32,061 bases of DNA. It comes from Paraclostridium ghonii (GTDB lineage: Bacteria; Bacillota; Clostridia; Peptostreptococcales; Peptostreptococcaceae). The notes beneath the pieces are model-generated. The model searched no databases, was not told the DNA's origin, and saw only the letters and a list, made by a program, of their open reading frames with translations. Shown here one piece after another: positions 13,726 through 30,344 of this stretch. The stretch lies in the NCBI RefSeq assembly GCF_023653455.1, contig NZ_JAKEDR010000014.1, positions 1 to 32,061 on the forward strand, given 5' to 3'. The translations under genes were made by a program, and so were the position numbers. Numbering within the stretch: position 1 is the first letter of the stretch; each line of letters starts with the position of its first letter.

Positions 13726-15074
13726 TATTTCAATATCCTTTTATTGAATTCATTCTTCATAAGTTTTAGAGAATTTGCTCTATGGCTTATTGAATTCTTT
13801 ATTGAACTAGGTAATTCTCCAAATGTCTTGTTGTATTTATCAACTATAAATAAAGGATCGTATCCAAATCCATTTTCACCTTTTTCCTCAAATGCTATCA
13901 TTCCCTCGCAAGTTCCTCTTACAACAAACTCTTTTCCACTTGGGAATACTACTGCAATGGCTGATACGAATCTTCCTGTTCTTTTACTCATAGGTACATT
14001 TTTCATAGATTTTACAAGTTTTTCTCTATTTTGCTCATCAGTTGCATTTTCTCCAGCATATCTAGCAGAATAAACGCCTGGTTTTTTCCCTAAAGCATCA
14101 ACTTCAAGCCCTGAATCATCTGCTATAGCTACCATATTTGTAGCTTTAGCTATAGTTCTTGCTTTTATAAGTGCATTATGCTCAAATGTGTGTCCATCCT
14201 CTACTATTTCTATTCCATCTAAATCAACATCTTTTAGAGAATGTATTTCGCAGTCAAAACCCTCTAGTATAGCTGAAATCTCTTCTAATTTATGAGCATT
14301 ATTTGTAGCTATAACAACTTCACTTGGAACTTCTTCCCCAAGCACTTCACTTGCTATATTTCCTAATGCTCTTCTTTGAGCTTTAATAAGCTCTTTATTA
14401 CCTTTTTCTCCTAACTCAAGCAGTGCATTTAAGTCACTTCTACTAAATGGTGATTCTTCTCCAGTTCCTTGAACTTCTACAAACTCACCTTTATCTGTCA
14501 TTATTACATTCATATCAACATGTGCATTAGAATCTTCTTCATAGCATAAATCTAGAATATGTTCGCCATTTACTATTCCTACACTTATAGCTGACACGAA
14601 ATTTCTTATAGGTAAAGTTTTTATTTGCTTATTTTCATATAAAGAGTATATAGCCTCTGCTACAGCTACGAAAGCACCTGTTATAGATGCAGTTCTAGTT
14701 CCTCCATCAGCTTGAATTACATCACAATCTACCCATATAGTTCTTTCTCCTATTTTAGATAAATCAATAACAGATCTTATTGCTCTTCCTATTAATCTTT
14801 GTATCTCTTGAGTTCTTCCATCAACTTTACCCCTTGAAGACTCTCTTATTTTTCTTTGATGTGTAGATCTTGGTAACATAGAATACTCTGCATTTATCCA
14901 TCCAGTTCCTGTATTTCTTAAGAAAGGAGGTACTTTATCTTCTATAGAAGCTGTACAGATAACTTTAGTTTCTCCCATTTCAATTAGCACAGATCCTTCT
15001 GCATATCTAGTAAAGTTTCTAGTTATTTTAACTGGTCTTATTTCATCATTTTTTCTACCACTAATTCTTGTCAT
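13725..15074 (-). CDS. rph: Fused RNase PH and RdgB/HAM1 NTP pyrophosphatase
   Basis: A 449-residue bifunctional protein. Residues 1-about 245 are RNase PH, a phosphorolytic exonuclease that trims tRNA 3' ends ([10 protein letters not shown] start, [43 protein letters not shown]). Residues about 252-449 are the house-cleaning pyrophosphatase that destroys ITP/XTP ([47 protein letters not shown]). The junction is short ([10 protein letters not shown]), with no stop or frame change, so it is a true fusion. The two genes are adjacent in many Firmicutes and fused in some clostridia. AGAGGT lies 8 nt before the ATG. It heads a three-gene run with the phosphodiesterase and the UPF0316 gene. Confidence 0.95.
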
Positions 15075-15246
15075 TTATATTACCTCTTTCAAACATATTT
15101 TAATCCCTAGGGAATTGCATTTAGTCCTGAATTATTGATTAATTAACTTACCCGAACTATAATTCAAATATTGTATTTACTATAATATATTAGCATTATT
15201 TAACTCTAATTAGTAGTAATTTGTTAATATAATTTCCGCAATATTT

Positions 15247-17274
<2,028 letters not shown>

Positions 17275-17369: not shown

Positions 17370-18305
17370 TTAATATCCTTTTTGAATATCTACAATATTT
17401 TTAAGTTGTTTTTTATTTATATAGTTATTTAAATTTTCATGTATAGTTTTAAATGTTCTATATCTATTTTGATTAGATATCCATGAATTATGTGGAGTTA
17501 TAGTCACATTTTCAAAATCCCAAAGTTTACTTTCTTTATTTAATGGCTCATGTTCAAATACATCTAAACAAACTCCTTTAAATTTACTTATATTATTTAT
17601 TAAATCATACTCATTTATTATATTTCCTCTTCCAACATTTATAATTACCGAACCATTTTTCATATTTTTTAACTTTTCATCATCAATCATTCCTACAGTC
17701 TCTTTTGTTGATGGTAATGTAAGAACTACTACATCACATTCCTTTAACTCACTATCTATATTATCTATGGAAATACATTTATCAAATCCTTCAATATCTC
17801 TACCATCTGTATTAACTCCATAAATATAAGTTCCAAATGGTTTTAATCTATCAGCTGCATTTTTTGCAATTGTTCCAGTACCTATAAACAGTATTTTTTT
17901 ATAAGTCAATTCTTCTAAATGTGTATTTAATTCCCATTTATTTCTACTTTGATTTTCATACATTTGCTTAGTATTTTTATATACATTTAAGATATACATA
18001 ACTATATATTCTGCCATAGGTATACTATAGTTTCCTTTATTGTTGCATACCAAAATATTATTTTTTATAACTATGTCTTTTGGTATTTGATCTATTCCTA
18101 CACTACTAAGCTGAATCAATTTTAAATTTGCTAATTTAGATATATCTAGAGTCTTAAATGGATTATATCCTAGCAGTACCTCTGTATCTTTTATTTCATC
18201 ATTTACTACGGCATTAGGCTCATTCATATATATTACTTCATATCCTAAGTCCTCTAGTTTTTCTATTTCATCATCTCTATACTTATTTGTAACTAATAAT
18301 TTCAT
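17370..18305 (-). CDS. D-2-hydroxyacid dehydrogenase family protein
   Basis: A 311-residue NAD(P)-dependent oxidoreductase of the D-isomer 2-hydroxyacid dehydrogenase family. The Rossmann motif GTGTIA is at 142-147, and the catalytic Arg226 (NVGRGN), Glu251 (DVFE) and His272 (PHNSW) are present. After the second strand the sequence is YGVNTDGR, without the usual acidic residue at its end, so NADP use is possible. The substrate is unknown; the family includes hydroxypyruvate, phosphoglycerate and 2-oxoacid reductases. GGGAGGAG lies 7 nt before the ATG. A strong terminator-like hairpin on the same strand sits 60 bp before the start, so expression may be controlled by attenuation. It differs clearly from ldhA at 29325. 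Confidence 0.9.
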   Translation of the reverse strand: MKLLVTNKYRDDEIEKLEDLGYEVIYMNEPNAVVNDEIKDTEVLLGYNPFKTLDISKLANLKLIQLSSVGIDQIPKDIVIKNNILVCNNKGNYSIPMAEYIVMYILNVYKNTKQMYENQSRNKWELNTHLEELTYKKILFIGTGTIAKNAADRLKPFGTYIYGVNTDGRDIEGFDKCISIDNIDSELKECDVVVLTLPSTKETVGMIDDEKLKNMKNGSVIINVGRGNIINEYDLINNISKFKGVCLDVFEHEPLNKESKLWDFENVTITPHNSWISNQNRYRTFKTIHENLNNYINKKQLKNIVDIQKGY

Positions 18306-19216: not shown

Positions 19217-20848
19217 TTATAGTTTTACATGCCCACTTTTTATCTTTCTATGTATGGTAGAAGAATCTATACCTATTTGTTTTGATGCCTTAGTAATTGA
19301 ACCATATCTATCTATTGCTCTAGGTATAATTATTTGATCTACTATTTTATATGCTTCATTTAAATTTACAATACCATTTACAACTATAGGTGATTTTAAA
19401 TCTTTTTCCTTAGATAAGTCATCTAAATTTATAAGCATATTAAACTCATCTTCTCCTATAGTATTCTTTACTGATAGTACAACAAATCTTTCAATAATAT
19501 TCTTTAATTCCCTTATGTTTCCAGGCCATGAATGACTATTTAATAAATTCATAACCTTAGGAGAAATATTAACTTGTCTATTATATTTATCATTATATAA
19601 ATCTAGAAAATGTTCAACTAAAGGGACAATATCTTCTTTTCGTTCTCTCAATGGAGGTATTTTTATTGGTATTACACTAAGTCTGTAATACAAATCTTGT
19701 CTAAATTTTAGATTATCATGTAAATCTTCATTTGAGATATTAGTAGCACTCACATACCTTACATCAATTTTAATCGGCTTACTTCCCCCAACTCTAGTAA
19801 TGGTATTTTCTTGTATAACTCTAAGTAATTTTTTCTGCATTTGAAGTGGTAGCTCACCTATCTCATCCAAAAATATAGTACCTCCATTTGCCTGCTCAAA
19901 TATCCCCTTTTTCCCAGATTTTTTAGCTCCAGTAAAAGACCCTTCTTCATACCCAAAAAATTCAGATTCTAGTAATTCATTAGGAATTGCCCCACAGTTT
20001 ATAGCGATAAATGCTTTGTCTCTCCTAGGGCTATATTCACATATTTTTCTAGCTATTATTTCTTTCCCAACTCCAGATTCTCCAGTTATAAAAATAGATG
20101 AATCAGATACAGCGGCCCTTTTTACCACGTCTTTTATATTCTCCATAACTTTACTTTTGCTTATGTATTCTGAATCAGTTGTAGCCCCATTATACTTAGT
20201 ATGAGAGTCTAAATTTATAACTCTAGAAATATCCCTACCTGTTAGCACTCCACCTTTTACATTCCCTTTATTATCGAATATTGGAACTGCTGTATACGCT
20301 ATAACTTTTCCTCCAGGATAGACTACATTTTTATAAGTTTTTTTCTTAACCTCTAGCATGTTAAGTATTATTGGTTCTTCTACTAACCCCATATAAACTA
20401 GCTTGTCAATTTTTCTACCTAAAACGTCTTTTCTCTTAAATGGTAGTATTTCATCGCATAGTCTATTCATCTTTTCTATAACTCCGTCTTTATTAAATAT
20501 AACTATAACCTCGTCTATATGCTCAATTATATCCTCAACAACCTTATCTGTTATCATAGACTTTTCAAATAAATAAATATATTGTAATTCATTTTTATAA
20601 TCTCTAATAGAATAAACATCTACAAACATACTTAAATCTCTAAGCTTTATGTTCTTTCTATTGTTTGAAAAGTAATCATTGTTGCTAAATGTACTATCTA
20701 AAACAGCTATATTTGATGGCTTGTCAACATCTACAAAATCAAAAATCTTCTTCATTTGTGCATTAAAATCTAGTATTTCTCCAGTTTCACTGCATAAAAT
20801 TGCTGGATTTTCTAAGTGATTAATAAAGCCTCTAAAATCATTATACAC
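19217..20848 (-). CDS. Sigma-54-dependent transcriptional activator with two PAS domains
   Basis: A 543-residue bacterial enhancer-binding protein. The N-terminus has two PAS-like sensor domains (about 8-95 and 105-212), then the AAA+ domain (about 225-455) with Walker A GESGVGKE (256-263), the sigma-54 contact loop GSFTGA (303-308, a GAFTGA variant) and Walker B GGTIFLDEIGE (322-332). It ends in a Fis-type helix-turn-helix (about 505-540; GSITKASKQIGIDSSTIHRKIKSG). There is no receiver domain, so it probably senses a small molecule or redox state directly. The start is a GTG with AAGGG 9-10 nt before it. It lies 310 bp after etfA on the same strand, behind a terminator, so it is a separate unit. 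The neighbouring hadA promoter is of the -24/-12 type, so this is its likely activator. Confidence 0.93.
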   Translation of the reverse strand: MYNDFRGFINHLENPAILCSETGEILDFNAQMKKIFDFVDVDKPSNIAVLDSTFSNNDYFSNNRKNIKLRDLSMFVDVYSIRDYKNELQYIYLFEKSMITDKVVEDIIEHIDEVIVIFNKDGVIEKMNRLCDEILPFKRKDVLGRKIDKLVYMGLVEEPIILNMLEVKKKTYKNVVYPGGKVIAYTAVPIFDNKGNVKGGVLTGRDISRVINLDSHTKYNGATTDSEYISKSKVMENIKDVVKRAAVSDSSIFITGESGVGKEIIARKICEYSPRRDKAFIAINCGAIPNELLESEFFGYEEGSFTGAKKSGKKGIFEQANGGTIFLDEIGELPLQMQKKLLRVIQENTITRVGGSKPIKIDVRYVSATNISNEDLHDNLKFRQDLYYRLSVIPIKIPPLRERKEDIVPLVEHFLDLYNDKYNRQVNISPKVMNLLNSHSWPGNIRELKNIIERFVVLSVKNTIGEDEFNMLINLDDLSKEKDLKSPIVVNGIVNLNEAYKIVDQIIIPRAIDRYGSITKASKQIGIDSSTIHRKIKSGHVKL

Positions 20849-21158
20849 TTTATTCAGCCCTTCCCTATTTAGTAAATTAACCCCTTGTTGAAATATAAAA
20901 GTCTGCTTTTTACACTAACAATATTATAGCATTTTAAAACACTTAAATTTGCAATTATTGTTAATTTTCTACTAACTTTGTCATTTTGTCAAATTTACTA
21001 TACTTTATTATGTTTTTATGTAATTAATACTAAATTATATACTTACGACATAAAATTAAATAATCCTTGTATATAATATCAAATTACATACAAGGATTAT
21101 TTTAATCAGGCTTACTATAAAGTGTAAAATCTATTCAAATATTTAAATTATATAGAAT
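20849..21158. other. Intergenic region between etfA and the activator gene
   Basis: It holds the etfA terminator (21060-21100) and the start region of the activator. A TATAAT on the minus strand (20928-20923) with TTGCAA 20 bp upstream is a poor but possible sigma-A promoter for the activator. I see no reading frame or -24/-12 element here. Confidence 0.5.
21060..21100 (-). terminator. Terminator of the had-acd-etf operon
   Basis: The 13-bp arms ATAATCCTTGTAT... (21060-21072) and the matching ATACAAGGATTAT (21088-21100) close a 15-nt loop about 60 bp after the etfA stop. The flanking sequence is T-rich on both strands but has no long uninterrupted T run, so strength is uncertain. Confidence 0.75.
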
Positions 21159-22211
21159 TTATGCATTTACTAATTCAATTAAATCATCTACATTTTCTAA
21201 TTTTTCAATAAGTAGTGGAACTATCTCTTTAACATCCCCAACTATTCCATAATCTGCTATATCAAGTATAGGAGCTGTTTCATTTTTATTTATAGCTATA
21301 ATAAAGTCAGAAGACTGCATACCTGCTAAATGTTGTATAGCTCCAGATATACCACAAGCTATGTAAAGATTTGGTTTAACAGTAGTTCCTGTTTGTCCAA
21401 CTTGATGAGAGTGGTCTATCCATCCAGCATCAACAGCTGCACGAGATGCACCTACTACTCCATTTAATTTATCAGCTAATTGCTTTAGCATATCAAATCC
21501 TTCTGGTCCACCTATTCCAAGTCCTCCAGCTACTATTACGTTTGCATCTGTTAAAGATACTAAATCTTTTTTAGTTTTTACAGTTTTAACTACTTCTACT
21601 CTTATATCTTCTTTACTTAAATTAAATGATACAGGAACTATTTTACCATCTCTAGAAGTATTTTTTTCTGCTTTTTCCATAACTCCTGGTCTAACTGTAG
21701 ACATTTGAGGTCTAGTGTTAGGGCATATAATTGTAGCCATTATATTACCACCAAAAGCTGGACGAGTTTGTTTTAGTTTTTTGTCTTCTGGATCTATTTC
21801 AAGTCTAGTACAATCTGCAGTAAGTCCAGTACTTACTCTTGAAGCTACTCTTGGAGCTAAGTCTCTTCCTATATGAGTAGCACCATAAAGTACTATTTCT
21901 GGTTTAAATTCATTTATTGCATCAGTTATAACTTTTGTATAAGCATCAGTTGTAAATTTTCCTAATAAAGCATCATCTGCCGTATAAACTGTATCTGCTC
22001 CATAAGCAACTAATTCTTTTGCCATTGAATCTACGTTTTCACCTAATAATATTGCGCAAAGATTAACTCCTATTTCATCAGCTAACTTTCTTCCTTCTCC
22101 AAGCAATTCTATTACAACAGGTGTTATTACACCTTCTCTTTGTTCTGCAAACACCCACACGTTTTTGTATGAGCTAAAGTCTTTTATATTTTCATTCATT
22201 TTTGTATTCAT
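21159..22211 (-). CDS. etfA: Electron transfer flavoprotein alpha subunit
   Basis: The alpha subunit of the heterodimeric Etf that exchanges electrons with AcdB. The 350-residue protein has the N-terminal nucleotide-binding-like domain (WVFAEQREG to about 190) and the C-terminal FAD-binding domain with [48 protein letters not shown] and the [18 protein letters not shown] segment. These are the alpha-FAD contacts expected in bifurcating and non-bifurcating Etfs. The ATG at 22211 is chosen because GGAGG lies 5 nt before it; the longer frame starting with TTG at 22223 includes that site. It is the last gene of the operon, 13 bp after etfB. Confidence 0.95.
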
Positions 22212-22224
22212 TTTAACCTCCAAC

Positions 22225-23010
22225 TTATATAATGTGCTTTTGTTTTAGTCCTACTAGTACCTTATTCACAATATCTTCTGGATTACCTTTAAGTATTTCC
22301 CCTTTACCTCTTGGATCTGGTGTAAATGATTTAAATACTTTAGTTGGTGATGCTTTAAGCCCAACTTCTTCTCTACTTACATCTAAGTCATCTATTGTCC
22401 AAACTTTTACTTCTGTTTTAAATGCTTTTACTATTTTATCAACAGACATATGTCTTGGTTCATTTAATTCTTTAACAGCTGTTAAAAGAACAGGTTTTTT
22501 AACTTTAATTACTTCGTATCCATCCTCTAATTGTCTTTGTACTGTTACTGTATCTCCATCTATAGAAAAATCTTGCACATACGTAACTTGAGGGATATCA
22601 AGTTTTTCAGCTATCTGTGGACCAACTTGAGCAGTATCTCCATCTATAGCCTGTCTTCCTGCAAATACTATATCATAATCTCCAACTTTTTTAATTCCCG
22701 CTGCAATTGTGTTTGAAGTTGCCCAAGTATCAGCTCCTCCAAATGCTCTATCGCTAAGAAGTATAGCTTCATCAGCACCCATAGCTAAACATTCTCTAAG
22801 CATAAAATCTGCTTGAGGAGGACCCATAGTTATTACTGTAACAGTTGATCCTTCATGATTATCTTTTAATTTTAAAGCTTCCTCTAATGCATTTGCATCA
22901 TCAGGATTTAGTATACTTGGAACACCATCTCTTATAAGAGTTCCCGTTTCTTTATTTATTCTAACTTCATTAGTGTCTGGAACTTGTTTTACGCAAACTA
23001 ATATTTTCAA
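22225..23010 (-). CDS. etfB: Electron transfer flavoprotein beta subunit, TTG start
   Basis: The beta subunit of Etf. The protein has the typical start [15 protein letters not shown] and the region [28 protein letters not shown], where D-G-D-T-x-x-V-G-P binds the second (bifurcating) FAD in clostridial EtfB; ordinary EtfB binds AMP there. With AcdB it would couple exergonic reduction of isocaprenoyl-CoA by NADH to reduction of ferredoxin. I place the start at TTG 23010: GGAGG lies 8 nt before it, and an ATG at 23025 would overlap that site and add five residues (MEVKT) foreign to the family. Length is then 261 residues. It follows acdB by 48 bp. Confidence 0.94.
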
Positions 23011-23058
23011 AGTCTTTACCTCCATTTAACTAGTATAAAATATTTTCAAAGGTTTAAT

Positions 23059-24192
23059 TTATTTTAAAATGCTTGAAGATATTACAATTTTTTGAACTTC
23101 TGATGTACCTTCGTATATAGACATTATTCTTGCATCTCTATACATTCTTTCAATTGGATAATCTTTTATAAACCCATATCCACCATGTAATTGTAGAGCT
23201 TTATAAGCAACTTCATTAGCTATTTCAGCTGCATAATACTTAGCCATAGCTGATTCTTTAGTCATGTTTACTCCAGCATTTTTCTTTTCAGCTGCATCGT
23301 AAACTAACAATCTAGCCGCATTCACTTTCGTTTCCATATCTGCTAAAGTAAATTGCGTATTTTGTAATTTTGAAATAGGCTTTCCAAATTGAACTCTTTC
23401 TTTTGTATATTTTATAGCTTCATCAAGAGCACCTTGAGCTATCCCTAATGCTTGAGCTGCAACCCCTATTCTACCAACATCAAGAGTTTGCATAGCTATT
23501 TTAAATCCTATTCCTTCTTTTCCTAATAAATTTTCCTTAGGAACTTTTACATTTTCAAAAATTAAGTCTGAAGTTTGAGTTCCTCTTATACCCATTTTAT
23601 CTTCATGAGCTCCAACAGAGAATCCTTCCCATTTACGTTCTACTATAAATGCACTTGTTCCTTTTAATCCTTTAGATCTATCTGTAACTGCAATTACTAT
23701 TGCAAAATCACATAAAGGTCCATTAGTTATAAAAGTTTTTCTTCCATTTAATATATAATGATCTCCATTAAGTTCTGCTGTTGTTTGTTGTGCAGAAGCA
23801 TCAGATCCAGCCCCTGGCTCTGTTAAACCAAATGCACCTATCATTTCACCTGATGATAAAGCTTTTAAATATTTTTGTTTTTGTTCTTCTGTTCCATTAT
23901 TAAGTATTGGAAGTGCTACTAGAGATGCTGATGCAGTTGCATAAGTTCCAGTAGATGCACATCTTTTACTAATTTCTTCCATTATTATTGCATACGATAC
24001 ATAATCGGCACCTGCTCCACCATATTCTTCAGGTACTGTAACACTTGTATATTTTGCTTTAGCCATTTTATCTAATAATTCTCTAGGCATTTCCCCAGTT
24101 TTATCAATTTCTTCTGGTATAGTTTTTAATTCTCTGTTTACAAAGTCTCTTACAGCTTTTCTTAAAAGTTCTTGCTCTTTATTAAATAACAT
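23059..24192 (-). CDS. acdB: Acyl-CoA dehydrogenase AcdB (isocaprenoyl-CoA reductase component)
   Basis: A flavin-dependent acyl-CoA dehydrogenase of 377 residues. It has GLTEPGAGSDA (FAD/substrate contact), FITNG, the RVQFGKPI motif, LQLHGGYGF, and the catalytic glutamate in IYEGTSEVQK near residue 361. In isocaproate formers this enzyme works with EtfAB as a reductase of 2-isocaprenoyl-CoA. The start is the ATG at 24192, with GGAGG just before it; the ATG at 24204 would put that site inside the gene. A 147-bp gap with an 11-bp inverted repeat separates it from hadC, so the operon may have an internal control or processing point here. Substrate is inferred from the neighbours. Confidence 0.95.
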   Translation of the reverse strand: MLFNKEQELLRKAVRDFVNRELKTIPEEIDKTGEMPRELLDKMAKAKYTSVTVPEEYGGAGADYVSYAIIMEEISKRCASTGTYATASASLVALPILNNGTEEQKQKYLKALSSGEMIGAFGLTEPGAGSDASAQQTTAELNGDHYILNGRKTFITNGPLCDFAIVIAVTDRSKGLKGTSAFIVERKWEGFSVGAHEDKMGIRGTQTSDLIFENVKVPKENLLGKEGIGFKIAMQTLDVGRIGVAAQALGIAQGALDEAIKYTKERVQFGKPISKLQNTQFTLADMETKVNAARLLVYDAAEKKNAGVNMTKESAMAKYYAAEIANEVAYKALQLHGGYGFIKDYPIERMYRDARIMSIYEGTSEVQKIVISSSILK

Positions 24193-24245
24193 ATTCTCCT
24201 CCATTTTTATATTCTAATATTTTTGATATGATATATTATTAAAAA

Positions 24246-24339: not shown

Positions 24340-25467
24340 TTAGGCGAAGCTAAGCATCTCAGAGAAGGCTTGAACACGAGTTCTTACTTGCTCATCATTT
24401 GATGTTTGTTGATCCACTTCTATATATAGTGTCGGAATATTTTTTGACTCTATATCCTTTTTAACTACAGGATAATCGTATTCTTCTGGATCACAGAATT
24501 TCATCATACAGAATATTACTCCATCTGCACCTTTAGCTTTTGCTTCTTCTACTATCATAGATCCACGTTTTTTCTCTGGATCATAAGCTAGTGAACATCC
24601 TTCTACATTTGACCACTGTCTTGCAAGTCTTTCTAAAGCATCTTTTCCATCTGGAACTAAAGTTCTAAATTGTCTAGATTCTTGAGCTAAATCATCTGCA
24701 ACAACAGTTATATTGTTTTCTTCTAAAATATCTAGAATGCCTTTTGAATCTAAAGATATACCAGTAAGAACAACTTTACTTCCTGTACATTCCTCAGGTT
24801 GCATTTTATTTAATTTAGATATAAGATTTTTAACTAAATCAGTGTGCTCTTCTTTTCTCATAAAGAATCCACTTTTTATAACTAAATTCCTAATTGAAGG
24901 GTTTATTGTTTTTGCATATTTAGGAGCTAATGCTACAAATTCTTGCATTACTCTTCTATGCTCATTGTAAACTTCTATACTTTCATGTAATTTTTCTTCT
25001 GTTATCTCGTGCCCACATATTTTTTCTAACTCTACTTTTACATGTTTAAATTCATTTATTAAATACTTAACGCCTGAATCTAACTTTCTATTTTGTGGGT
25101 ACACTAAAGATATATAAGGTACTTGTGGAACAGCTACTTTCCAGTTTTGTCCTAAGCAAATTAAAGTGTCACACATTCCAGGTATTATAACAGCTGAAAG
25201 TTCATTATAAGTTCCTCTAAGTCCATATTCTAGAGATGACTGCATTATTGAACATGCAAATGCCGGGAAATATTGTTTAGCTAAATCTAATTCAGTTTGT
25301 CCACCCCATATTCCTACAGGAAACATTCCTGCTGCATGAATTATTTCTTCTGGACAGTATACCGGAAAACATCCTATAGCTTTACTTCCAGTATCTTTTT
25401 TAAATTTTTTGATTACTTCATTTGGGTTATTAACTACTTCTTGCATTCTTGCTAAAATAGATTCCAT
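24340..25467 (-). CDS. hadC: 2-hydroxyisocaproyl-CoA dehydratase beta subunit HadC
   Basis: One of the two iron-sulfur subunits of (R)-2-hydroxyacyl-CoA dehydratase, which removes water through a ketyl radical. The 375-residue protein has the HgdB/HadC pattern [20 protein letters not shown] near its start and conserved cysteines (for example C33, C38, C72, C99), some of which bind the [4Fe-4S] cluster. The ATG shares one base with the hadB stop (TAATG), and the ribosome binding site AGAGGTG lies in the last codons of hadB, so the two subunits are translationally coupled. Family and context agree fully; the leucine-derived substrate is inferred from the whole operon. Confidence 0.95.
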
Positions 25468-26693
25468 TATATTTCACCTCTGTTAAGATTTTTTCTCTCA
25501 TTCATAACTTCAACTAGACCTTGTATTCTAGTTTCAAATTGAGCTTTAGTAAATCCTCTAGGGTCTGCTTGGTCTCCATCAAATCCTGCTGATGGTATAC
25601 CTGTAATTTCTTCGGTTTTTCTTTGCATTTCATATTGAATTAAACTCATAAGTTTACAACTTCTATTCATATGATAAAATGCCCCATCACATTTACCATC
25701 TCTTAATGAATTAATTCTATATTCTGTCATTTTATCTAAGTTAACATTATTAAACATTCCACTATACGCTCTTGCCATTCCATCTAAATCATTAACTTCA
25801 TATTGAAGAGCCCAAGCATGAGGATAAACACTACCTGTCATGTTAACACCGTATTTTGCTAGTGTTTTCATTTTAAATCCTATAGAAGGCCAACAAGGTA
25901 TTCCTTCCATCATGATTCTGTATTTCTCTTCACCTCTGAATGTAGATACTTTATTTTTTATATTTCCTTCTAATTCTTCTATTAAAAGTTTAAATGCTTC
26001 TGTAGTTTCTTTTTTACCTCTAGCACAAACTATTACTGCCATGTAAGTAAATAAATCGAATCCATTCATAGGAGATGGATCTGATCCCTCAGGTAAACTC
26101 ATTGAATACTTCCAAAGTCTACCATTTTCAGCTGATGTTCTCATTACTTCTTCAAACTTTTTAGGATCGAATTTTTTGCCTGATATCTTTTCAAGTTGTG
26201 CTATAGCTTCTTGGAATTGCCCTTTTATATATTCAACCCTTTCATCAGTAACATAATCTTCATCATTGAAAGGTAAATCTATCATTATCATAGGAATATT
26301 TAATTCTTTTGATATATTTTCATACCATTTTATAACTTGGTTGCATATATTATTACAGCATAGTAAGAAGTCTGGTTTTGGCATATCTAAAGTATCACTT
26401 TTCCCTTTTTCTAAAAATCCAAAATTTGTTCTAGCATAAGCACATAAATCTATAGAATATCCTTGAGCTTCTGATAGTTCACAAAACTCTAATGATTCTT
26501 TTTTTGCTGCCACTCCTGCTGCATGATTTTCTGGATAACATAAGTTTAAGTCTAATACCTCTGCTAATTCTTGAGGAAATACTGAAGTTGACCATCCAAC
26601 AGGTCTTCCTTCCTCTTTAGCTTTAAAAGCATTTGCATACTGCTGAGCTAAGAGCTCATTGATTACTGTTCTAGCATCTTTTTTTTCAGACAT
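25467..26693 (-). CDS. hadB: 2-hydroxyisocaproyl-CoA dehydratase alpha subunit HadB
   Basis: The partner of HadC and site of substrate binding in the family. The 408-residue protein begins [20 protein letters not shown] and carries family cysteines in [21 protein letters not shown] and [12 protein letters not shown]. The start is set at ATG 26693, 6 nt after GAGGG; an ATG two codons earlier touches that site. It follows hadI by 18 bp. The heterodimer needs one-electron activation by HadI with ATP, after which the radical is recycled over many turnovers. Confidence 0.95.
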
Positions 26694-26711
26694 CTTCATC
26701 CCTCTTTACTA

Positions 26712-27488
26712 TTATTTTTTTATTTCATTGTAGGCATATATAGCTGCTCCTAAGGCCCCTGTCAGTTGAGGTATCTCCGGAACTATTATATTAGTCCTCA
26801 ACTCTCTCTCCATAGCTTTAACTACGCCTGAATTTTTTGCAACTCCACCAACCATTACTACATCTTCCTTTACTCCAAGTCGCTTTACCAAACTGGCAAC
26901 CCTTTTAGCAACTGAAGTATGAATTCCTGCAACTATATCCTCTATAGCTATATCATTTGATAAGTGTGATATAACTTCTGATTCAGCGAAAACTGTACAT
27001 GTATTACTTATAGATACTTCATTTTGAGATTTCATTGATATATCCCCAAGATCAGATACCTCTACTTCAACAATTTTTGCCATAACATCTAAAAATCTAC
27101 CAGTGCCCGCTGCGCATTTATCATTCATCAAGAAATTTAACATAACTCCATTGTCATCTAATTTAAGTGCTTTAGCATCTTGACCTCCAATATCTATAAC
27201 TGTCCTAACTGTAGGTATTAAAAACTTTACTCCTTTAGTATGACAACTTAGCTCACTTATTTGTTTATGAGTGTCTGCATATTTCATACGACCATAACCA
27301 GTTACTACAGTATTTTCGATATCAGATTCGTTTATATTAAGCTTTTTATACAAATCTTCAAGAACTCTAGCAGGGCCGCTAGTTCCTGTTCCTGAAGATA
27401 TTGTAGAATAAGCCACTATTTCTTTTCCATCTTTTAAAATAAGTCCTTTAGATGCAGTTGATCCTATATCTAATCCCATTGTGTACAT
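26712..27488 (-). CDS. hadI: Dehydratase activator ATPase HadI (archerase)
   Basis: A homodimeric ATPase that uses ATP hydrolysis to push one electron from ferredoxin into HadBC. The 258-residue protein has the ASKHA fold motifs GLDIGSTASKG (5-15) and DIGGQDAKAL (99-108), and the two cysteines that hold the shared [4Fe-4S] cluster at the dimer interface: Cys125 in NDKCAAGTGRF and Cys164 in SNTCTVFAESE. AAGGGG lies 11-12 nt before the ATG, a rather long spacing. It sits between hadA (23 bp) and hadB (18 bp), the usual position. Confidence 0.96.
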   Translation of the reverse strand: MYTMGLDIGSTASKGLILKDGKEIVAYSTISSGTGTSGPARVLEDLYKKLNINESDIENTVVTGYGRMKYADTHKQISELSCHTKGVKFLIPTVRTVIDIGGQDAKALKLDDNGVMLNFLMNDKCAAGTGRFLDVMAKIVEVEVSDLGDISMKSQNEVSISNTCTVFAESEVISHLSNDIAIEDIVAGIHTSVAKRVASLVKRLGVKEDVVMVGGVAKNSGVVKAMERELRTNIIVPEIPQLTGALGAAIYAYNEIKK

Positions 27489-27511: not shown

Positions 27512-28744
27512 CTAAACTAACTCTTTTGAAGCATCCAGTTTAATAGCTTTAGAGTTAACCATAGCTAGTATTTCATCATCAGTGTAACCTATCTCTTTAA
27601 GAACTTCTTCTGTATGTTCTCCTATTTTAGGTGCTGGTGAATATTCTTTTATACCCATAGTTTTAAATTTAACTGGTCCGTTTACTAACACGCCTTCATT
27701 TCCATTTTCATATTTAGTTTTAAATAGAAAATCGTTTGCCCAAGCTTGTTCATCTTCAAGTATATCTTCACAGCTTTGAACCTTTTCAAATGGAAGATCT
27801 GCTTCGTCTAATAAAGCTGACCATTCATCTAATGTTTTTTCAAGCATTGCTTCTGCAACTATTTTTACCATTTCATCAACATGTAATGGCATCACTTTTA
27901 TATCATTAAATCTATCATCTTGCATTATTTCTGGTCTATTTATAACTTCACAGAATTTTGGAAGCCATTTATTATATTGAATTAATGCAAGTTGTATCCA
28001 TTTATCATCTTTACATTTGTAAGTAGTCATAAGTGGACTATTTGGGTTAGCTCTTGATATAGGCATTTTATTTCCATATTGAGCTGTTGTAACCATAAGC
28101 CCCATTCCGTAAAGAGCTGTGTGGAATAAACTTACTGTTACTCTATCTCCTTCTCCTGTAACTTGCTTTTTATAAAGAGCTGCTAAAATACCTGCAGTTA
28201 ATGATATTCCTGCATAATGATCTCCAAATCCAGCTGCTGTATTACATGGTGAAGTTCCTTTTTCCATAAGAGATTGGCTAACTCCTCCTCTTGCAAAATA
28301 TGCTGTATAGTCAAATCCTGGTTTATCTTTTAATGGACCTTCTTCTCCATATCCTAATATGTGAGCATGTATAAGTCCTGGGAATTCATCTTTTAATTGT
28401 TCATAAGTAAATCCTATTTTTGAAAGAGCTTGTTCTCTAACATTTGTAATAAATATATCTGATTTAGATAGAAGCTTATGAATTATTTCAACACCTTCTT
28501 TTGTTTTAACATTTACACTTATTCCTTTTTTATTTCCATTTTCTAGCTCAAACATTGGATTCTCGTCATCAGTGCATGGAGATTTAAATGTTCCCCCCAT
28601 AACTCTTATACCATCCCCACCAAGTGGTTCTATTTTTATTACTTCTGCACCCCAATCTGCAAGTAGTTTAGCGCAGCAAGGAGCTGCAACGAAACTTGAT
28701 AACTCAACAACCCTAACACCTTGTAATAATGATTTATTATCCAT
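27512..28744 (-). CDS. hadA: Class III CoA-transferase HadA (2-hydroxyisocaproate CoA-transferase)
   Basis: A family III CoA-transferase of 410 residues that moves CoA from isocaproyl-CoA to (R)-2-hydroxyisocaproate. The N-terminal GVRVVELSSFVAAPCCAKLLADWGAEVIKIE and the catalytic Asp175 in GFGDHYAGI are present. AGGAGG lies 7-8 nt before the ATG. It is the first gene of the operon, with a leader of about 118 nt from the predicted sigma-54 start site. In the C. difficile arrangement I recall, ldhA precedes hadA on the same strand; here ldhA is on the opposite strand, 580 bp away. Substrate follows from operon content. Confidence 0.95.
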   Translation of the reverse strand: MDNKSLLQGVRVVELSSFVAAPCCAKLLADWGAEVIKIEPLGGDGIRVMGGTFKSPCTDDENPMFELENGNKKGISVNVKTKEGVEIIHKLLSKSDIFITNVREQALSKIGFTYEQLKDEFPGLIHAHILGYGEEGPLKDKPGFDYTAYFARGGVSQSLMEKGTSPCNTAAGFGDHYAGISLTAGILAALYKKQVTGEGDRVTVSLFHTALYGMGLMVTTAQYGNKMPISRANPNSPLMTTYKCKDDKWIQLALIQYNKWLPKFCEVINRPEIMQDDRFNDIKVMPLHVDEMVKIVAEAMLEKTLDEWSALLDEADLPFEKVQSCEDILEDEQAWANDFLFKTKYENGNEGVLVNGPVKFKTMGIKEYSPAPKIGEHTEEVLKEIGYTDDEILAMVNSKAIKLDASKELV

Positions 28745-28813: not shown

Positions 28814-28870
28814 TTAAATATAAATATTTACAAATTTTGAGTTAAAATTTTATTTTGTTAATACTATTCT

Positions 28871-28888
28871 TAAGCATTTTCCGTGCCA
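28871..28888 (-). promoter_or_regulatory. Sigma-54 (-24/-12) promoter of hadA
   Basis: Read on the minus strand: TGGCAC-GGAAA-ATGCTTA. The GG (-24) and GC (-12) are separated by exactly 10 bases and the -24 box is a perfect TGGCAC. The -12 box ATGCTT differs from TTGCWW by one base. The expected start site is near 28862. A sigma-54 activator gene lies at the other end of the operon. Confidence 0.82.
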
Positions 28889-28976
28889 AATATTGCTAAA
28901 TTTTTAAAATAGTTAATTTTTACACATTCTTACAATCGTTTTCATAAGTATTTTTTATAGTAATTTTTATTTTTTG

Positions 28977-28989
28977 TTGCATAATGCAA
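28977..28989. promoter_or_regulatory. Activator site, palindrome copy 1
   Basis: TTGCATAATGCAA is a perfect palindrome with 6-bp arms and a central A. Its centre is about 96 bp upstream of the -24 GG of the hadA promoter, a normal distance for a sigma-54 enhancer site. Confidence 0.75.
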
Positions 28990-28996
28990 TACATAC

Positions 28997-29009
28997 TTGC
29001 ATAATGCAA
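28997..29009. promoter_or_regulatory. Activator site, palindrome copy 2
   Basis: A second identical TTGCATAATGCAA. Its centre is 20 bp from copy 1, close to two turns of the helix, so two activator dimers could bind the same face of the DNA. Confidence 0.75.
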
Positions 29010-29102
29010 GCATTTTATACCTTTCATATTTTCCATAAATTTCATAATATAATAAATTCTTTTAAATTTCTGTATTTACTTTGTTGTAAAATTAACTAAT
29101 AG

Positions 29103-29153
29103 ATGCTATGATTTAATCATAATAGCATATAGGTTAATTTCCATATGCTATTA
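29103..29153 (+). repeat. Overlapping alternative hairpins upstream of ldhA
   Basis: ATGCTAT (29103-29109), ATAGCAT (29122-29128) and ATGCTAT (29145-29151) alternate. The middle copy can pair with the first (with an inner GATT/AATC) or with the third (AATAGCATAT / ATATGCTATT plus GG/CC past a one-base bulge), not both. No T run follows. They may be operators or, if transcribed, a switch. Confidence 0.6.
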
Positions 29154-29174: not shown

Positions 29175-29201
29175 AATGACTAAAGTTTAACTTTAGTCGT
29201 T
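29175..29201. promoter_or_regulatory. Long palindrome upstream of ldhA, likely operator
   Basis: The arms GACTAAAGTT / AACTTTAGTC (29178-29187 and 29189-29198) are exact around a single T, and extend to 13 bp with one T-G pair. It lies about 85 bp before the ldhA -10 box. It matches no regulator consensus I recognise. Confidence 0.65.
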
Positions 29202-29324: not shown

Positions 29325-30344
29325 ATGAAAATTTTGATGTTTAGTACACGCGAACATGAATTACCTGCAATATCAAAATGGATTGAGGAAAATGGAAACA
29401 ATATTCAAGTCGATACAATTAAAGAGGGCTTATCTTCTGAAACTGTTGATAAGGCTAAAGGTTATGACGGAATTTCAATCCAACAAACAAATTCTATTGA
29501 CGAGCCTATAGTTTATGAAAAATTAAAAGAGTTTGGAATAAAGCAAATAGCTTCTAGAGCAGCTGGATTTGATATGATTAATTTAAACGAAGCAGTTAAA
29601 AATGATTTAATAGTTACAAATGTACCTGCTTATTCACCAAATTCAGTAGCAGAACTTGCTGTAACTCAGACAATGAACCTCCTGAGAAATATGCCTCTTA
29701 TACAAAGAAATATTACTGTTGGAGACTTTAGATGGTCAGCAAATCTAATAGCTAGAGAAATTAGATCTGTTACAGTTGGCATAGTTGGAACAGGTAAAAT
29801 AGGATCAACTGCTGCTAGATTATTTAAAGGATTAGGTGCAAATGTAATCGCTTATGATGCTTATAGAAATGAATCTTTATGTGATATTTTAACTTATAAA
29901 GATACTTTAGAAGATGTTCTTAAAGAAGCAGATGTTGTGTCTTTACACACACCTCTTACTGAAGACACTAATCATATGATAAATAAAGATAATATAAAAT
30001 TTATGAAAAAAAGTTCTTTTTTAATTAACACTGGTAGAGGTGGAATTGTAAATACAGACGATTTAATCGAAGCTTTAGAAAACGGTTACATACTTGGAGC
30101 AGCCTTAGATACTTTCGAAACTGAAAAAAATTTCTTAAATCAAGTAATTCCTCATCATGACCTTACTGATTCACAAATTAAAAAATTATTAAATATGGAA
30201 AATGTATTATTTACTCACCATGTAGGATTCTTTACTACTACTGCAGTTGATAATTTAGTAAGTACTGGATTAAACTGTGTAAAAGAGATATTAACTACTG
30301 GTAACAGTTCTAATAATGTATTGTCACCTGTTGGTGTTAAATAA
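29325..30344 (+). CDS. ldhA: (R)-2-hydroxyisocaproate dehydrogenase LdhA
   Basis: An NAD-dependent D-2-hydroxyacid dehydrogenase of 339 residues that reduces 2-oxoisocaproate from leucine to (R)-2-hydroxyisocaproate, the first reductive step of the pathway. The Rossmann motif GTGKIG (155-160) is followed by Asp177 (AYDAYR), which favours NAD. The catalytic Arg238 (NTGRGG), Glu265 (DTFE) and His299 (FTHHVGFF) are present. The pattern DTFETEKNFL and the C-terminal half are those of D-lactate/2-hydroxyisocaproate dehydrogenases. AAGGGGG lies 8 nt before the ATG. It is transcribed away from hadA, unlike the single-operon form I recall. A hairpin follows the gene. Leucine specificity is inferred from context. 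Confidence 0.93.
   Translation: MKILMFSTREHELPAISKWIEENGNNIQVDTIKEGLSSETVDKAKGYDGISIQQTNSIDEPIVYEKLKEFGIKQIASRAAGFDMINLNEAVKNDLIVTNVPAYSPNSVAELAVTQTMNLLRNMPLIQRNITVGDFRWSANLIAREIRSVTVGIVGTGKIGSTAARLFKGLGANVIAYDAYRNESLCDILTYKDTLEDVLKEADVVSLHTPLTEDTNHMINKDNIKFMKKSSFLINTGRGGIVNTDDLIEALENGYILGAALDTFETEKNFLNQVIPHHDLTDSQIKKLLNMENVLFTHHVGFFTTTAVDNLVSTGLNCVKEILTTGNSSNNVLSPVGVK

Follow-up and report, generated by a model that had tools for sequence, protein, structure and literature searches.

The control region upstream of hadA in Paraclostridium ghonii is, with a probability of about 90%, the LeuR/SigL switch of reductive leucine fermentation. It is part of the window, the whole analyzed stretch of 32,061 nt. 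The switch is already known from C. difficile, and the window is a well-supported further example of it, not a new mechanism. The new part is the comparison across loci, which delimits the predicted enhancer well across several genera. The motif TTGCA-N3-TGCAA, which is usually paired, accompanies LeuR in Paraclostridium, Metaclostridioides, Clostridioides, Proteocatella, Peptostreptococcus, and Gallibacter, as well as in a Clostridium tagluense-type group and in one MAG. The products of hadAIBC-acdB-etfBA and ldhA reduce leucine via 2-hydroxyisocaproate to isocaproate, and this reduction is a major electron sink for clostridia that ferment amino acids.

For this genome, the evidence is sequence evidence throughout, and we infer the binding of LeuR, the looping, the signal, and both transcription start sites. 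According to the proposed mechanism, SigL-RNA polymerase would occupy the -24/-12 element in a closed state. LeuR, produced from its own nearby gene, would bind to both TTGCA-N3-TGCAA sites in the form of two neighbouring dimers, spaced by about two helical turns. Once the PAS input is satisfied, the AAA+ ring of LeuR would assemble, and LeuR would loop over about 110–130 bp to the promoter and open it, leading to transcription of hadAIBC-acdB-etfBA. Transcription of the divergent ldhA gene would start at a sigma-A-type promoter located between ldhA and hadA, and hence the first step of the pathway and the remainder would be under the control of different sigma factors. With a concrete predicted enhancer sequence, LeuR binding, the LeuR signal, and the use of different sigma factors for ldhA and hadA can be tested directly.

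Features of the had locus and its control region (positions in the window)
Feature	Position	Strand	Basis
leuR, activator with PAS and sigma-54 AAA+ domains and a probable helix-turn-helix, GTG start	19217..20848	-	domain searches, motif reading, orthologue alignment
terminator-like 20-pair stem, etfA-leuR gap	21058..21102	-	1 found, shuffle mean 0.1
etfA	21159..22223	-	ETF, ETF_alpha
etfB	22225..23025	-	place and synteny only
acdB, acyl-CoA dehydrogenase	23059..24204	-	place and synteny only
hadC, 2-hydroxyisocaproyl-CoA dehydratase beta	24340..25467	-	NF052456, 696.8 bits, just below cut-off of 700
hadB, 2-hydroxyisocaproyl-CoA dehydratase alpha	25467..26699	-	NF052455 above cut-off
hadI, dehydratase activator	26712..27488	-	TIGR00241 above cut-off
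hadA, CoA-transferase family III, first gene of target operon	27512..28744	-	Pfam PF02515; synteny
-24/-12 (sigma-54) promoter element TTGGCACGGAAAATGCTTA, facing hadA	28871..28889	-	direct reading; consensus scan, shuffles, alignment
conserved 23-bp block AGAATGTGTAAAAATTAACTATT, located between the palindromes and the -24/-12 element	28908..28930	-	19 of 23 columns invariant, 6 sequences
proximal enhancer palindrome (predicted) TTGCATAATGCAA	28977..28989		exact reading, genome search, shuffles
distal enhancer palindrome (predicted) TTGCATAATGCAA	28997..29009		exact reading, genome search, shuffles
likely sigma-A-type ldhA promoter TTGTAA-N17-TATGAT, extended -10 TGCTATGAT (29104-29112)	29084..29112	+	promoter scan; region comparison
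ldhA, (R)-2-hydroxyisocaproate dehydrogenase candidate, divergent	29325..30344	+	domain/family searches; synteny

On the minus strand, the genes follow each other in the order hadA, hadI, hadB, hadC, acdB, etfB, etfA, and then leuR, and ldhA is divergent on the plus strand. As the terminator-like stem separates etfA from leuR, leuR is probably more than the last gene of the operon and has its own transcript. A second gene for a D-2-hydroxyacid dehydrogenase (17370–18305) is located shortly past leuR, and one is also present in genome G001 (L120).

Direct reading of the minus strand from 28889 to 28871 yielded TGGCAC-N5-ATGCTTA with GG-N10-GC facing hadA, exactly as a sequence-only reading of this DNA had claimed. 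The element agrees with TTGGCAY-N5-WTGCTWW, a consensus modelled on the published one of C. difficile, at 14 of 14 specified positions. The arrangement by which a sigma-54 promoter is recognized, GG-N10-GC within TGGCAY-N5-TTGCW and 5′ of a gene start, was thus found at hadA. The -12 GC is located at 28874–28875, 131 bp from the hadA ATG at 28744, which has an AGGAGG ahead of it, and transcription would be expected to start near 28862. A search for TTGGCAC-N5-WTGCTTA with at most one mismatch resulted in one match in the window (shuffle mean 0.01). In the whole genome, the consensus with at most one mismatch was found 37 times on both strands, eight times exactly, compared with 5 matches of the reversed pattern. 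The parts TTGGCACG and AATGCTTA of the element are identical in all six aligned sequences (the window and five close relatives). Sigma-54 itself is encoded by a single-copy gene (PF04552, one match, E 7.1e-63), and the full-consensus element together with this gene supports the claimed sigma-54 promoter of the had operon. Two further exact -24/-12 sites are present on contig C13 of the same genome (L003 and L004). By eye, they precede genes for what are presumably PrdC-like and L-cysteine desulfidase-like proteins, a context that fits a sigma-54 regulon of amino-acid fermentation.

Upstream of the promoter, two identical palindromes with centres 20 bp apart (28983 and 29003) were found, again as claimed. 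Distances of 96 and 116 bp from the promoter had been given for them, which is correct with the -24 GG as reference; relative to the -12 GC, however, the centres are 108 and 128 bp upstream, and they are about 120 and 140 bp away from the expected start. TTGCATAATGCAA has only two exact copies in the whole genome of 3.53 Mb, both of them here. When TTGCATNATGCAA-N7-TTGCATNATGCAA was searched with up to three mismatches, the pair was found once in the window and never in 100 shuffles of it, which, together with the co-occurrence with LeuR across loci described below, supports the notion of a paired enhancer. The distal palindrome, which is nearer to ldhA, can be extended to 15 bp (28996–29010), and in the alignment it is the better kept of the two sites among close relatives; it is also itself the sole terminator-like element found in the intergenic region. 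The proximal site is reduced to its right half (TTTTGCAA) in G001 and in three Metaclostridioides loci.

A lone exact TTGCATNATGCAA is not rare, and at least one copy is present in 22 of 59 other genomes (23 of 60 including the own genome); a single palindrome therefore proves little. When one palindrome locus from each of these 22 genomes was inspected, a -24/-12 element of at least 12/14 was present within about 1.5 kb in three of them, and only the had locus of G005 has one within 500 bp downstream of the palindrome. In the own genome, TTGCATWATGCAA with up to two mismatches occurs at 131 places, compared with 70 for the reversed pattern. The sequence-only reading had also proposed a genome search for palindromes near -24/-12 elements. 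Thirty of the 37 loci matching the consensus with at most one mismatch were fetched, and among these a site of at least 9/10 was found at hadA only. At the other 29 loci, no such site that would point to a wider LeuR regulon was detected within about 520 bp upstream.

The gene at 19217–20848 had been put forward as that of the activator, and its product proved to be the LeuR orthologue, with 72–73% identity to the protein encoded beside the had operon in genomes of the C. difficile group. It contains a PAS domain (residues 105–208), a sigma-54 AAA+ domain (229–395), a lid, and a probable C-terminal HTH. The Sigma54_activat domain scored 219.8 bits, and the Walker motifs and GAFTGA-type loop of a sigma-54 activator are represented by GESGVGKE, FLDEIGE, and GSFTGA. 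The HTH of the window protein scored under the Pfam cut-offs (HTH_8 17.5 versus 22, HTH_50 19.6 versus 27), and HTH_8 matches 20 of 21 LeuR orthologues at E<=0.01. The residues T531, R534, K535, I536, and K537 at the HTH end are invariant over the 21 orthologues, and the recognition helix is nearly invariant. Assignments of the protein as PrdR (389.7 bits, cut-off 795) or as TyrR (240.8 bits, model cut-off 576) were rejected. The interpretation in the sequence-only reading is supported in most parts, but the redox signal, suggested there as an alternative to a metabolite signal, is unsupported. Over the 21 orthologues the PAS region 105–208 contains no invariant Cys or His, and redox sensing via heme or Fe-S was discarded; the PAS domain may bind a flavin or a small molecule. 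Comparison of residues 1–212 with solved structures resulted in seven weak matches, mostly to PAS-type sensor domains, the best being a histidine kinase (E 4.5e-4) and the second the cytoplasmic PAS of CitA, and because these matches are weak no LeuR ligand can be named. Residues 1–100 gave a degenerate PAS match under the cut-off (E 0.037) and may represent a second, degenerate PAS domain.

On the ldhA side, a sigma-54 promoter was rejected as a candidate, as no consensus GG-N10-GC faces ldhA in any of ten ldhA-hadA regions (the window, five close relatives, and four of the C. difficile group). Plain promoter-like matches in the region did not exceed the shuffles (8 found, 7.0 expected). An extended -10 (TGNTATNAT) is located about 190–290 bp before the ldhA start codon in 10 of the 10 regions, which are related and were counted without a chance control. 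Because the ldhA side lacks GG-N10-GC and has an extended -10, promoters for two sigma factors are probably present in the single intergenic region. In C. difficile, glucose acts on ldhA and hadA together through CcpA, as stated in an excerpt of PMC3510511, and the iron/Fur data excerpted from PMC6311696 contain a sharp drop of both genes. Since the two genes respond together in that species, for which an entirely separate control of ldhA would not account, some control shared by ldhA and hadA is likely. The accessible part of PMC8225356 treats ldhA to etfA1 as one operon, unlike the divergent position of ldhA in all 4 C. difficile-group loci that were laid out. An inverted repeat (GACTAAAGTTTAACTTTAGTC, 29178–29198) is present in the predicted ldhA leader and is not conserved in the alignment of relatives, and a Rex-like sequence (29081–29098) overlaps the ldhA -35.

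The predicted action of LeuR on the twin palindromes is supported by the co-occurrence of sites and activator across 38 loci, i.e., the window, 33 loci from a HadB alignment, and four further stretches. The HadB alignment had yielded 34 loci, and L086, whose contig breaks off 162 bp short of hadA on one side and just past etfA on the other, was excluded; four of the 38 (L118, L119, L122, and L123) are had-like only, with a HadB about 50% identical. Linked leuR genes encode proteins 43–92% identical, in L095 and L088 over a part of the length or in pieces. A -24/-12 element of at least 13/14 together with a TTGCA-N3-TGCAA UAS of at least 9/10 at 60–500 bp upstream, the UAS thresholds having been fixed after a first look at the sites, was present in all 23 loci with linked LeuR and in none of the 15 without. 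The corresponding Fisher p of 6e-11 overstates independence, as many loci are from Clostridioides or Peptostreptococcus. Among triplet-shuffled loci, 1 of 190 had both elements. Paired sites with centres 17–21 bp apart were found in 16 of the 23 loci (exactly 20 bp in nine); in five loci only one site reaches 9/10, and in two the sites are spaced wider. Measured from the -12 GC, the sites are 94–130 bp away in 14 of these 23, 166–227 bp in L094 and L117, and 179–495 bp in the seven Peptostreptococcus loci. Among the 15 loci lacking a linked LeuR gene, two contain a -24/-12 element of 13/14 without a UAS, in L118 on the other strand and in L123 beside a different activator, which is 38% identical to LeuR and was counted as a paralogue.

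The position of leuR is variable. It follows etfA in Paraclostridium (including the window), Metaclostridioides, and Clostridioides; it precedes the operon in Peptostreptococcus, Proteocatella, and Gallibacter (L094, L095, L097, L098, L100, L103, L107, L114, and L117); and it is divergent in Clostridium tagluense-type loci and one MAG (L102, L104, L106, and L116). Whatever its position, the sites stand upstream of a -24/-12 element aimed into the had operon. That the sites track leuR through these changes of gene order is the best evidence here for a pairing of activator and site, as judged from the sequences. In the Metaclostridioides mangenotii locus L088, leuR is split into two overlapping pieces (14270–15897), and promoter and enhancer are retained.

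At the genome level, a LeuR match of E<=1e-100 was found in 24 of 147 genomes, once in each, with at most nine candidates scored per genome, and 23 of the 24 have a HadB over the family cut-off. Conversely, at this threshold the match is absent from 4 of the 27 genomes with such a HadB (G004, G100, G107, and G110). G004, of the same genus as the window, keeps the -24/-12 element (L086), and because its had contig stops just past etfA, leuR may either be absent from the assembly or have another location. Across the 147 genomes, a search for two sites spaced by exactly 20 bp, with at most two mismatches in 20 bases, yielded 11 places in 10 genomes; this pattern overlooks known loci, including those of G001, G005, G021, and G074. 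Eight of the 11 places are had promoters. Of the other three, two are identical to each other and belong to another part of G094, and the third belongs to G040, a genome without a LeuR match.

These distributions also bear on two other explanations of the sites. One is that an AT-rich intergenic region contains a -24/-12-like string and two palindromes by chance. Single palindromes are indeed frequent, as described above, but the shuffle controls, the conservation across genera, and the SigL dependence published for C. difficile (PMC7438776) leave this explanation a practically negligible probability. The other accepts the -24/-12 element and assigns the palindromes to a different regulator, a repressor or second activator, with LeuR acting elsewhere or on other sites. 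Many repressors typically use short perfect palindromes, the binding of LeuR is a prediction here, and the proximal site is degenerate in the three Metaclostridioides loci and G001. However, the sites follow LeuR through all three gene orders and are missing in 15 of 15 loci without linked LeuR, and the near-invariance of the recognition helix points the same way, so that a different regulator is highly improbable.

A further possibility concerns an addition to the LeuR/SigL switch, i.e., that the conserved block at 28908–28930 and the Rex-like sequence near the ldhA promoter bind Rex or a similar NADH-sensing repressor, so that both promoters would need high NADH. The alignment in which the block is conserved comprises the window and five close relatives, three of them Metaclostridioides mangenotii-type loci. 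Like the likely ldhA promoter, the block is an addition to the features given in the sequence-only reading. Elsewhere in the genome, the inner 17-mer of the block was found nowhere with 0 or 1 mismatch and at 9 places with two mismatches, compared with 4 for the reversed pattern. The block could be a bend or the site of a second regulator. LdhA and AcdB-Etf use NADH, and the genome has one gene with a Rex DNA-binding domain. For scoring, TTGTTAA-N4-TTAACAA was used, which we take to be the Rex operator consensus. The Rex-like box reaches 12/14 in four of the five close relatives, a score attained by 11–21 of 200 shuffles. In the window, however, it scores 11/14, which 91 of 200 shuffles attain, and the block scores 10/14; G001 has 11/14, the C. 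difficile-group regions contain nothing above the shuffles, and in the whole genome 1369 places reach 11/14, compared with 1144 for the reversed pattern. A Rex gate is therefore doubtful. It seems rather unlikely, too, that the LeuR enhancer pair and the 23-bp element couple the sigma-54 operon to the sigma-A gene, with an extra, possibly NADH-dependent, gate on the sigma-54 promoter. No RNA elements were found in the window by Rfam at gathering scores. A cre-like sequence adjacent to the block (ATGAAAACGATTGTA, 28931–28945) matches 9/10 of what we take to be the Bacillus cre consensus; it is absent from 12 other loci and does not fit the C. difficile consensus.

The LeuR/SigL switch, as the preferred reading, can be compared with the system of C. 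difficile. In the excerpted part of PMC6615313, LeuR (CD0402, encoded beside the operon) and sigma-54 are predicted to control the had operon, LeuR is given for Clostridioides only, its motif is termed distinct, and a gel shift of C. beijerinckii SigL with a C. difficile hadA promoter fragment is included. According to the excerpts of PMC7438776, hadA expression in sigL::erm was less than 0.001 of the wild type and isocaproic acid was strongly decreased. Among the matches listed in the mostly open-access literature on LeuR/CD0402, no study of LeuR binding or of a LeuR mutant was found. The C. difficile group has the same operon and gene order, with leuR likewise after etfA, a -24/-12 element TTGGCACG-N4-ATGCTTA, and paired sites with a centre spacing of 20 bp. 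In contrast to the window, its sites are weaker (e.g., TAGCAAAATGCAA and TTGCATAATGCCA) and are 97 and 117 bp from the -12 GC, and in the alignment the 23-bp block was not found in the sequences of this group. All four C. difficile-group loci that were scanned contain the CcpA site AGGAAAACGTTATGCT published in PMC3510511 for the hadA start, whereas the best match of the window to the consensus from that source is 11/15 and located away from the hadA start.

Proline reductase under PrdR/SigL is a further case of a sigma-54 activator for a Stickland acceptor pathway, and PrdR is the best NCBIfam match of LeuR. TyrR-like and NtrC-family enhancer-binding proteins share with LeuR the PAS domain, the AAA+ domain, and probably the short C-terminal HTH, and, as with the predicted LeuR sites, their enhancers are paired palindromes located 5′ of a -24/-12 element. 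PrdR-type sites differ from the TTGCA-N3-TGCAA described here in that they consist of TGT and ACA at a distance of 10–12 bp, according to the excerpts of PMC6615313.

All eight C. difficile-group hadA promoters (L089–L092 and L124–L127, the latter four used for promoter reading only) have TTGGCACGATAAATGCTTA. Table 4 of PMC7438776, as excerpted, has one and the same string, TTGGCACGATTTATGCTTT, under both hadA and ord, and the discrepancy is possibly a slip in the table or a strain difference. In L094 and L106, the -24/-12 element is followed by an open reading frame (376 and 501 codons, respectively) that ends right before hadA, and the operon seems to start one gene earlier in these two loci. 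By eye, the extra frame (L094:6758–7888, L106:6410–7915) is membrane-protein-like and might represent a transporter under the same switch.
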